From positions 1 through 20,191 of IMG/VR virus record IMGVR_UViG_3300044701_000378: DNA of 20,191 bases; one strand, written 5' to 3'. Below are positions 7,317-18,372 of this stretch, piece after piece. The position numbers and the translations under genes were made by a program. How positions within the stretch are numbered: the stretch's first letter is position 1; each line of letters begins with the position of its first letter. Under the pieces are notes generated by a model. It saw only the letters and a program-made list of their open reading frames with translations. It did no database searches and was not told where the DNA came from. The stretch is from a virus.

Positions 7317-7646
7317 GTGTTCACTGAAGACCTAGATGTTTTCCTGGCTGATTTCGGGCTGCCGGTGGTGATGGGCGGCGTGAGCGGCATTGGTGTGCTG
7401 GACATGCCAGCGCAGATGATCGCTGATGGAATGGTGATCACGACCGATTACAAGCTGACCGTGCGCGCTAATCTGTTTGGCGCAATGAAGTACGGAGATA
7501 CTGTGTTGGTCAATGGCGTGACGTATCAGGTGCGTGAGCCGATGCTGGTGGATGATGGCGCGTTCCTTGAAGTTAGCCTGACTAAGCTGGCAGTAAGTCA
7601 ATCAGTGTTTGCCGCCGACGTGTTCGCCGAAGGGGTGTTTGTATGA
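7317..7646 (+). CDS. Head-tail joining protein (FII-like)
   Basis: The product is 109 residues from the GTG at 7317. Its layout is like the FII-type stopper or connector proteins: an N-terminal helix ([13 protein letters not shown]), then beta strands with an [18 protein letters not shown] turn and a [19 protein letters not shown] segment, where FII proteins have the 'GD.. ..g..Y.V' pattern. FII of lambda (117 residues) joins the head to the tail terminator. AGGGAG five bases before GTG 7317 supports that start; the TTG at 7299 lies in the terminator tail and is unlikely. The stop overlaps the fibre start (ATGA). The assignment rests on size, position and pattern. Confidence 0.65.
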
Positions 7647-8971
7647 CGCTGAACTTAGTCCGGCGCAACGTCAAGGGTTCACCGCTGACGGCGGCTGATC
7701 ATGATGGCAATTTAGACAAGCTCGAAGAAGCGATTGAGGATATTGAGCTAACGCCAGGCCCGACTGGCCCCGCCGGCCCCGCCGGCGCAACCGGCCCCCA
7801 GGGCCCTGCCGGCGCAACTGGCCCTGCTGGCCCAGCTGGAGCAGCAGGCAGCAGCGCCTATCAGGTCGCGGTTGCCGGTGGCTTCGTCGGCACAGAAGCC
7901 CAATGGCTGGCGTCACTGGTTGGCCCGCAGGGCCCGGCTGGGGCCACTGGTCCTGCCGGGGCTGCCGGGCCGCAAGGTCCTGCCGGAGCTACCGGGGCCA
8001 CCGGCCCGCAAGGCCCGAAAGGTGACACCGGAGACACAGGTCCACAGGGCCAGGCTGGCGCAACTGGTGCGACCGGTCCACAGGGACCAAAGGGCGACAC
8101 GGGTGATACGGGGCCACAAGGCCCAGCAGGTGCAACAGGAGCAACAGGGCCTGCCGGTGCCACGGGTCCGCAGGGACCAGCTGGCCCGGCCGGCGCAACC
8201 GGCGCCCAGGGCCCCGCCGGTGTGGTGGCCGCCACTGCCCCGATCACCTACGACGCCGGCACGCAGACGGTGGCGATCACCGCTGCGACCACCAGCGCCG
8301 CGGGCTCGATGAGCGCCACGGACAAGGCGAAGTTGGATGGAATCGCGGCTGGCGCCGAAGTCAATGTCAACGCCGACTGGAACGCGAGCAGCGGCGACGC
8401 CCAGATCCTGAACAAGCCGACGATCCCCGCCCCGGCTGATGCCTCCCCGCAGCCGCCCGGTGTGGCTGCGATCGGCACCAGCACCGACTACGCCCGCGAA
8501 GATCACGTCCACGCCCTGCCGCCCCTAGTCTCCACGTCTTCGGCGGGGTTGGCGCCGGCGACGGGCACAGCGACTGGGAGATTTCTGCGCGACGACGCCG
8601 CCTACGCGCACCCGATCGACACAATCGTTCTGGCCTGCAGCGACGAGACCACGGCACTGACAGCCGGCACAAACAAAGTCAGGTTCCGAATGCCGTACGC
8701 GGCAACGCTTCTAGCGGTTAGGGCCAGCGTGAACACGGCGCCGACCGGTTCGACGCTGATAGTGGACATCAACGAAGCCGGCACCAGCGTTCTCGGTACG
8801 AAGCTCAGCATCGACGCCAGCGAGACCAGCAGCACGACGGCAGCGAGCGCTGCGACGATCACCGACAGCAGCCTGGCCGACGACGCCGAAATCAGCATCG
8901 ACATTGACCAGATCGGCAGCACCGTGGCCGGTGCCGGCCTGAAGGTCATCCTGAGCGTGCGGAGGGCTTGA
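7643..8971 (+). CDS. Collagen-like tail fibre protein
   Basis: The 442-residue product is modular. Residues 1-36 are a short attachment-like head. Gly-X-Y triplets fill residues 39-69 and 94-193. They are broken by [20 protein letters not shown] (residues 71-90), a module often seen among phage collagen repeats. Then come a spacer, a [20 protein letters not shown] segment with ILNKPT (228-260) and [12 protein letters not shown] (282-293), both common in phage fibres. The C-terminal domain (about 326-442) is a beta-rich tip of a type found on many fibres. Gly-X-Y stretches would form a trimeric triple helix as a stalk. The gene sits between head-joiner and tail terminator, not at the usual place after J. 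Confidence 0.88.
7982..8125 (+). repeat. Tandem 24-residue duplication in the collagen stalk
   Basis: Residues 114-137 and 138-161 of the fibre are the same 24-residue unit ([20 protein letters not shown] then PQG and Q or P). The two 72-base units are encoded with many different synonymous codons, so the DNA copies have diverged while the protein has not. Confidence 0.75.
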
Positions 8972-16603: not shown

Positions 16604-16948
16604 ATGGCCACGTTCACTTACATCCCGGAGTTCCCACCAACCGAGAACAGTGAACCGCGCGTGCGGTCTACGAAGCTCGGTGATGGCTATGAGCATCGAA
16701 TCAGATTCGGCCTGAACACTGATCTCAAGGTGTGGGATCTTGAGTTTCGCCGGCGTGACAACACCGAAACCGGGCAGATTCGCGACTTCCTGAATGCCCG
16801 TGGCGGCGTTGAGTCGTTCACCTGGACGCCACCCTTCTACAACGCTACTGCTGGCCAGTGGATCTGCAAACGCTGGAGCATCAGCGCTGAGGCGCACAAT
16901 ATCAACAACATCCGCGCCACGTTTGAGCAGGTGCCGGAGCCGAGCTGA
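16604..16948 (+). CDS. Minor tail protein M-like
   Basis: The 114-residue product matches the plan of lambda gpM (109 residues), a tail-tip protein acting after tape measure and before gpL. Typical parts are the opening FTYIPEFPPTENSEPRVRST, KLGDGYEHRIRFGLNTDLKVW (about residues 25-45), an ETGQIRDFLNARGGVESFTW segment near 64-83, then PP and a closing strand NNIRATFEQVPEP. It starts nine bases after the tape measure stop and its own stop overlaps the L start (TGATG). Confidence 0.88.
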   Translation: MATFTYIPEFPPTENSEPRVRSTKLGDGYEHRIRFGLNTDLKVWDLEFRRRDNTETGQIRDFLNARGGVESFTWTPPFYNATAGQWICKRWSISAEAHNINNIRATFEQVPEPS

Positions 16949-18372
16949 TGAAAAAGGTTATCTCTGATCTGCAGACGGTTGCGCCATCACAGATCATCGA
17001 GCTATTCGAGCTGAAACTAAATGCCAGCCTGCACGGTAGTGGCACGACGTATCGGTTCCATGCTGGCGTCAACGCGAAGTCAACAGCAACCGCCATCACC
17101 TGGAACGGCAACGCCTACCAGGCCTACCCAGTGGAGGCCGAGGGCTTTGAATACAACGGTGAAGGCCAGCTGCCGCGGCCGAAGCTGCGTGTGAGCAACC
17201 AGCTGGGCCTGATCACCACCATCCTGATCCAGGTCAACACCAGCACTCCCGGTAACGACCTAGTTGGTGCCACGGTAACGCGGATCCGTTGCCTGGCCAA
17301 GCACCTTGATGCGGTGAACTTCACCGGCAACGTCAACCCATACGGCACGCCAGACCCTACGGCTGAGTTCCCGCGCGAGGTGTTCTACATCGCCCGCAAG
17401 ACTCAGGAGAACCGCGACATCGTGGAGTTCGAGCTGGCGGCAGCTTTCGATCTGGCCGGCATCCGTGCACCACGTCGCCTGTGCATCGCCAACCTGTGCA
17501 ACTGGGTGTACCGCTCGGCCGAATGCGGATACATTGGCGAAGCCTACTTCAATGCCGACGATAGCCAGGTCGGCAGCTCTGCGGCTGATGTCTGCAGCAA
17601 GCGGCTATCAGGCTGTGAAGTTAGGTTCAGTGCTGTGACATTCAACGGTGGAGTGACCAACGGCAGCACAACCGTCACGGGTCTGACGACCAATCAGCTG
17701 GCAAGGATCAATGTCGGTGATCCGATCTTCGGCCATGGCATCCAATCAGGTGCCACCGTCGCCAGCAAAGGCAGCAGCACTCTGACGCTTAGCCAGGCGG
17801 CGAACTCATCCACGGTGCTGACGAGAACCGCCACGCTGTCAGCGACTGGGCTGACACTGACGTTCACTGGTGCTAACAATGAAAACAGCCCTAATAACCT
17901 TCGGCCCGGTATGTTTGTATCTGGCGCTAACGTGCCCGGTGGCACAACCATATCCAGTATCTCAGGTAATACCGTCACCCTTAGCATCACCTACAACCCA
18001 GATGCTCGAGGCACATCGAAGACAACATCTGTCCAGGTTGAGAAAGGACTGTTTGAGGTTTGGATCGCAGACAACCCGGCCGATGCGCAGGTCAACGACT
18101 ACGCCGGCAACCAGTCTGGTGTGACCACTACGCAGCCGCATGGAACCAACGTTCTTGCTGGGACGCGCGTTGTTGGCAAGGACGGCGATCGACTCACGCT
18201 CAGCACGCGCTCATCGTTTGATAATGGCGCGACCTTTACCGCCATCTTTTGGCAACCCAGATCATTCACCGGGTCAACCTATACATTCACCGGATCAGGT
18301 GTCTACACCGTCCGCGCTAACAACAGCCTGCCATTCGGGTCATTCCCTGGTGTCGGCAGCTTCTACGCATGA
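16948..18372 (+). CDS. Minor tail protein L-like with large C-terminal insertion
   Basis: Residues 1-227 match lambda gpL, a tail-tip protein that binds an iron-sulphur cluster. Cysteines C184, C193, C216 and C223 have spacings 9, 23 and 7, the spacings I recall for the four cluster ligands of gpL (C173, C182, C205, C212); C179 is an extra cysteine. gpL proteins normally finish soon after the last ligand with a PFGGFPG-like end. Here about 230 residues (228-457) come in between, and the normal-looking end [13 protein letters not shown] closes the protein. The insertion holds at least two related beta units: [20 protein letters not shown] followed by SSTLTLSQ, and [20 protein letters not shown] followed by GNTVTLS. 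Length is 474 against about 232 residues for lambda gpL. The start ATG overlaps the M stop and the stop overlaps the K start. Confidence 0.87.
17629..18321 (+). other. Inserted beta-repeat region within the gpL-like gene
   Basis: This segment encodes residues 228-457 of the L-like protein, between the last cluster cysteine and the conserved-looking C-terminal end. It contains two similar units of roughly 50 residues (about 236-285 and 300-352), each with a TxTVTG or LTLTFTG strand, a G-x-x-V/I-x-G turn and a closing TLTLS or TVTLS strand. A further section contains [19 protein letters not shown] and [10 protein letters not shown]. Exact borders are approximate. Confidence 0.7.

Follow-up and report, generated by a model that had tools for sequence, protein, structure and literature searches.

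A three-unit beta-repeat cassette inserted after the iron-sulphur cysteines of a gpL-family phage tail-tip hub protein

We analysed a viral DNA of 20,191 nucleotides (IMG/VR record IMGVR_UViG_3300044701_000378, positions 1 to 20,191; hereafter the window) and found that its gpL-family tail-tip hub protein carries a long cassette of beta units between the last cysteine of the predicted iron-sulphur (Fe-S) set and the normal C-terminal tail (Table 1). We favour, at somewhat better than even confidence, the view that this cassette is a modular surface decoration of the tail-tip hub, most likely for auxiliary contact with the host surface. It fits a known class, the insertion-decorated tip proteins of siphophages, and what differs is its site after the fourth cysteine (Cys4) and its three-unit repeat. 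No description of a three-unit cassette at this site was found in the literature searched, the coverage of which was partial.

Table 1. Features of the gpL gene and its cassette (positions in the window)
Feature	Position	Strand	Evidence
gpL-family tail-tip hub protein, 474 aa	16948..18372	+	PF05100, PHROG 18, 8iyk_L fold and profile
Conserved core (HDI-like domain and Fe-S domain, ends CEVRF)	16948..17628	+	Alignment of 31-32 gpLs
Inserted cassette, residues 228-460, 233 aa	17629..18327	+	Alignment; 60 distinct relatives have the site empty
Beta unit 1, residues 228-289	17629..17814	+	AF2 strands; hhalign 98.1% with unit 2, 95.5% with unit 3
Beta unit 2, residues 290-353	17815..18006	+	AF2 strands; hhalign
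Beta unit 3, residues 354-428, most divergent	18007..18231	+	AF2 strands; hhalign 97.6% with unit 2
Return strand and hairpin (YTFTGSG.YTVR), leads back to core	18232..18327	+	Alignment; strands E204-212, E218-223, E227-230
Normal gpL C-terminal tail (LPFGSFPG end)	18328..18369	+	Common to insert-free relatives

The open reading frame matches PF05100 (Phage_tail_L) in Pfam at E=1.4e-54 over residues 32-229 (185 bits against a cut-off of 25) and PHROG 18 at E=5.9e-80, and the profile of its family retrieves lambda gpL (8iyk_L) from the PDB at E=2.9e-38. The AlphaFold2 (AF2) model of gpL also matches 8iyk_L (Foldseek E=5.7e-16), with the Fe-S region of the model partly at low local confidence. 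The gene is preceded by a gpM-like gene (16604-16948) and followed by a gpK-like JAB/NlpC-P60 gene (18369-19082), which is the usual lambda arrangement. The predicted Fe-S set consists of C184, C193, C216 and C223, and the corresponding cysteines of lambda gpL lie at 173, 182, 205 and 212 (PMC10721106); further cysteines are found at 115 and 179. The two proteins share the HDI-like domain, four Fe-S cysteines at a 9-23-7 spacing, a conserved C-terminal end and the gene order gpM-L-K-I-J, whereas lambda gpL has 232 aa and no cassette after Cys4. Elsewhere in the window, a collagen-like Gly-X-Y repeat protein is encoded at 7643-8971 among the morphogenesis genes (PF01391, E=1.6e-20).

An earlier note on this DNA, made from the sequence alone, had described an insertion of about 230 residues just after the Fe-S site, with both the cysteine spacing and the normal end retained. 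Alignment with other gpLs confirmed each of these points and upheld the start of the segment at 17629, while its end was moved from 18321 to 18327, two codons later. Relatives with an empty site have 5 aa between CEVRF, which holds the last Fe-S cysteine, and the LPFGSFPG end, so the net addition is about 228 aa; the gpL of Synechococcus phage S-H1, for example, has CAKRFTSGLLPFGGFPG at this position and no insert. These matching empty sites in close relatives identify the segment as an insertion, and an added C-terminal tail was ruled out because the normal gpL end is retained. The Cys1-Cys2 motif is kept in 54 of 56 insert-bearing gpLs.

IMG/VR was scanned with two N-terminal gpL patterns, a key that is unbiased by the insert, which returned 80 loci. 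Two of these end before the site between Cys4 and LPFG and were left out; among the other 78, the insert is present in 17 and 5 aa are present in 61, so the segment is far from universal in gpL relatives; its common presence in them, which the earlier note had named as grounds for rejecting its view, is not what the scan shows. A second scan was keyed to the insert, and the two scans together gave 140 distinct gpLs, 60 with 4-5 aa at the site, 71 with more than 100 aa and the rest without a readable end. No intermediate lengths were seen among the readable gpLs, and the insert measures 210-272 aa in 56 distinct cases. In the clade with the N-terminus ISSVYEEL, five phages carry the insert and others do not, and the DNA of filled and empty members is approximately 70-94% identical on both sides of the site. 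Natural pairs with and without the segment, as suggested by the earlier note, therefore exist, but they do not differ in this segment only. In many comparisons the upstream similarity within this clade runs to about codon 209, just before Cys3, and resumes at the LPFG codons. The exchanged piece thus often includes Cys3-Cys4. The insert-free core tree requires at least seven gains or losses of the cassette, although the starred branches alone force only two. No named phage with the cassette was found, as tblastn searches of 50,697 phage records with the window insert, with two divergent inserts and with related units from a tail-collar fibre returned no match, to which BLAST low-complexity masking may contribute. 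At the other end of the protein, many relatives in the ISSVYEEL clade (L054-L099) have a frame that stays open for about 64 aa ahead of the gpL start (..STITDGTVVWTA), and in the 887-aa frame of L168 the gpL core starts only at residue 444, which suggests N-terminal extensions or fusions of gpL.

The AF2 model of the insert, based on an alignment of 16 inserts, has a mean pLDDT of 82.8 and a pTM of 0.74, and shows three strand groups in succession followed by a closing hairpin. The beta-rich content proposed from the sequence is supported by this model. The earlier note had counted two related units; the repeats are real, and both hhalign and AF2 put their number at three. Comparisons of the unit profiles (probabilities in Table 1) gave hhalign scores of 41-63 and shuffled-column controls scored at most 16, bar isolated outliers in the shuffles of units 2 and 3, one of which was inspected and proved to be a degenerate 5-column alignment. 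The hairpin motif is kept in all 16 aligned insert-bearing gpLs. The model of full-length gpL (pLDDT 77.5, pTM 0.51) does not fix the orientation of the cassette relative to the core.

The sole sensible fold match of the insert in the PDB is chain 1 of 8eci, the decoration protein of Arthrobacter phage Bridgette, to which Foldseek matched one unit (probability 1.0, 2.3 Å over 65 columns, 26% identity). The unit profile also picks 8eci by sequence, at a modest E=0.0016. The Bridgette protein differs in being a separate capsid protein and not part of a tail-tip hub. Fibres of Synechococcus phages and virion structural proteins are among the predicted viral structures that match the insert. In the fetched contigs, the unit was also found within proteins that match a head-tail adaptor, head closure Hc3 and tail-collar fibres. 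The units in several of these share 46-48% identity with unit 1 of the window, and units 1 and 2 of the window share 23%. The presence of the unit in fibre, head-closure, adaptor and capsid decoration proteins shows that it is a widespread virion-decoration module, with gpL as one of its hosts. In the stretches read of the related contig G001 (40 kb), no protein other than gpL bears the unit. Individual occurrences were located inside proteins matching Hc3 (phrog_578) at L175, L176 and L178 and inside a head-tail adaptor match at L177.

These relationships bear on an alternative that we consider unlikely, in which the cassette is a structural decoration that braces the tip or the contacts between gpL and gpJ, as capsid cement proteins do, and makes no contact with the host. 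The nearest solved relative of the unit is indeed a capsid decoration protein, the head-closure and head-tail adaptor proteins that also bear it are not where primary adhesion takes place, and the insert is under purifying selection (see below). However, close relatives lack the cassette at the equivalent site, so the tip can stay intact without it; in addition, most pairs show faster divergence in the insert than in the core, and other gpLs bear lectin-containing inserts in the Fe-S domain. The earlier note had called the modules Ig- or adhesin-like. The Ig part was ruled out, as no match to Ig, Big or FNIII domains was accepted in Pfam, PDB sequences or Foldseek; one member of the insert family has a weak Pfam match to PKD_6 (E=0.79). 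The adhesin-like part is plausible because the unit is common to tail-collar fibres and a capsid decoration protein, and because lectin domains occur at a neighbouring site in a relative. No carbohydrate-binding module (CBM) or lectin family was found for the window insert, and CBM structures were only very weak Foldseek matches (probability at most 0.07). The unit resembles the Ig-like domains of phage structural proteins in being promiscuous, occurring in many virion proteins and varying in presence between relatives, but it has another sequence and another predicted fold, and no relation to Ig was found.

Evolutionary rates were compared between insert and core in seven pairs. In each pair the insert has the lower amino acid identity (for example 47%, against 86% for the core), and in six pairs it has the higher dN/dS. 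With values of 0.05-0.41, the insert dN/dS is purifying, and no sign of positive selection was seen in these pairs. Insert and core identities are correlated (Mantel r of 0.73, permutation maximum of 0.13). Some pairs have cores that are about 80% identical and inserts that are just 30-40% identical, so replacement or fast divergence of the insert occurs. Recombination confined to the insert was considered for the window and L004 and rejected, since substitutions rise only modestly, up to 32 per 200 nt versus 9-16 around it. The frequent gain or loss of the cassette and the presence of the unit in unrelated virion proteins could also be explained if it were a largely neutral passenger, a promiscuous domain that an exposed loop can accommodate. 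We regard this as very improbable, given the purifying selection and the conservation of the length and hairpin among insert-bearing gpLs.

A second site in gpL, between Cys2 and Cys3, holds different insertions in several relatives. One of them is a gpL of 941 aa (L041:4001-6826) with a 696-aa insertion that contains D-mannose-binding B_lectin domains (PF01453, E=1.2e-29); by sequence, this is a lectin built into the Fe-S domain of the tail tip. An insertion of 284 aa in L053 has a weak B_lectin match, and those in L046, L048, L050, L059, L071 and S-CBS4 (70-221 aa between Cys2 and Cys3) have no strong family matches. Both sites are filled in the gpLs at L112:1891-3426 and L144:2161-3636, which combine an insertion of about 40 aa between Cys2 and Cys3 (motif GAPSAG..DGxxYYDTTNNLYYGPKTxGAWG) with a cassette after Cys4. 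In Marine virus AG-345-A17 (L008:2986-3978), the entire Fe-S cysteine domain of gpL is absent and LDAVNFP is followed by an insertion of about 138 aa; these residues look cupredoxin-like by eye and have no Pfam match.

Decorated hubs have been described previously. RcGTA gp13 is described with an oligosaccharide-binding domain (168-249) within its ion-binding domain (PMC7296036), the Fe-S domain of the phage R4C hub is split by an extra domain described as oligosaccharide-binding (PMC10276861), and JBD30 gp50, judging from its cysteines at 147, 156, 238 and 245 (PMC11445458), would have an insertion between Cys2 and Cys3. The remark in the earlier note that this position is not usually thought of as adhesive is thus half true, as RcGTA and R4C are described with such domains in the Fe-S domain, but at the other site. 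All three are gpL-like metal-cluster proteins, and differ in that their insertion lies between Cys2 and Cys3 and has about 60-80 aa, whereas the cassette lies after Cys4, has 233 aa and is a three-unit repeat. The window gpL itself has the undecorated Cys2-Cys3 distance of 23. Evolved Dit proteins of siphophages are similar in that an optional surface module in a conserved ring protein of the tail end adds host contact, but Dit is not gpL and its modules are recognised CBMs, whereas the cassette unit has no assigned ligand. In JBD30, the gpL-like upper baseplate protein forms the tail-fibre attachment site together with the distal tail protein (PMC11445458), and in the related contig G001 gpJ is followed by a fibre-like ORF. 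The cassette could accordingly be a docking platform for side tail fibres and not a host binder; we find this improbable, as its presence varies within one clade with otherwise similar flanking DNA.

Contact with the host surface is the favoured reading, followed by structural bracing, fibre docking and a passenger role. It draws on the clean insertion at a site that has 4-5 aa in 60 relatives and no intermediate lengths, the similarity of flanking DNA between clade mates with and without the cassette, the intact cluster cysteines, the three modelled units, the other virion proteins that carry the unit, the B_lectin domains at another site of L041 and the faster divergence of the insert. A further argument is that the Fe-S domain of lambda gpL lies on the outer surface of the tip (PMC10721106), with which the outward pointing of the cassette proposed earlier is consistent. 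A large addition at a short-linker site, whose units recur in fibre and capsid decoration proteins, would most simply be an outward decoration. Against this reading count the purifying dN/dS of the insert and the lack of a Pfam or PHROG family match for the window's own insert. Decoration or stability without adhesion is possible, since the unit is a decoration of capsid and neck proteins as well. An inward turn of some of the residues that follow Cys4 is also possible, since the gpL-like protein of JBD30 has its C-terminus buried between domains of the hub (PMC11445458).

We infer the surface exposure, trimer arrangement and host-surface binding of the cassette as follows. The three tandem beta units and their closing hairpin are inserted between Cys4 and the normal end of gpL. 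As gpL is trimeric in lambda, three cassettes with nine units would ring the exterior of the tip beside the Fe-S cluster. Their most likely role would be auxiliary: to touch the host surface (envelope glycans, S-layer or capsule) with low affinity and so help the tail tip to dock or to become oriented ahead of engagement by the main receptor-binding proteins.

The virus is probably a cyanobacterial phage. The best gpL matches among named phages include Synechococcus phages, and a search of genome contigs for a host returned only enterobacterial gpLs (37-39% identity). The contig G001 carries a gpL identical to that of the window. A sigma-70 gene on the contig with the identical gpL (L107:10148-11221, minus strand) has Sig70-cyanoRpoD (TIGR02997) as its best NCBIfam match, below the cut-off, and an ORF of G001 looks tyrosine recombinase-like by eye, with no NCBIfam match. 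The virus may plausibly be a temperate phage that infects a picocyanobacterium.

The cassette adds a second insertion site, recurrently filled with three units, to a protein best known for its Fe-S cluster. More tentatively, and with doubt prevailing, the Fe-S domain of gpL may be a general two-site outer display platform of siphophage tips, in which the cluster acts as a staple for exchangeable modules, with beta-repeat cassettes after Cys4 and lectins and others between Cys2 and Cys3. If this is true, the staple would allow large modules to insert without unfolding the hub, and the platform would help explain the strong conservation of the gpL cluster. Natural pairs that differ in the presence of the cassette but have similar flanking DNA make it possible to test what gpL decorations contribute to adsorption. 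Lectins, beta units and helical hairpins around one cluster suggest that gpL is an overlooked source of host-contact determinants in environmental siphophages.
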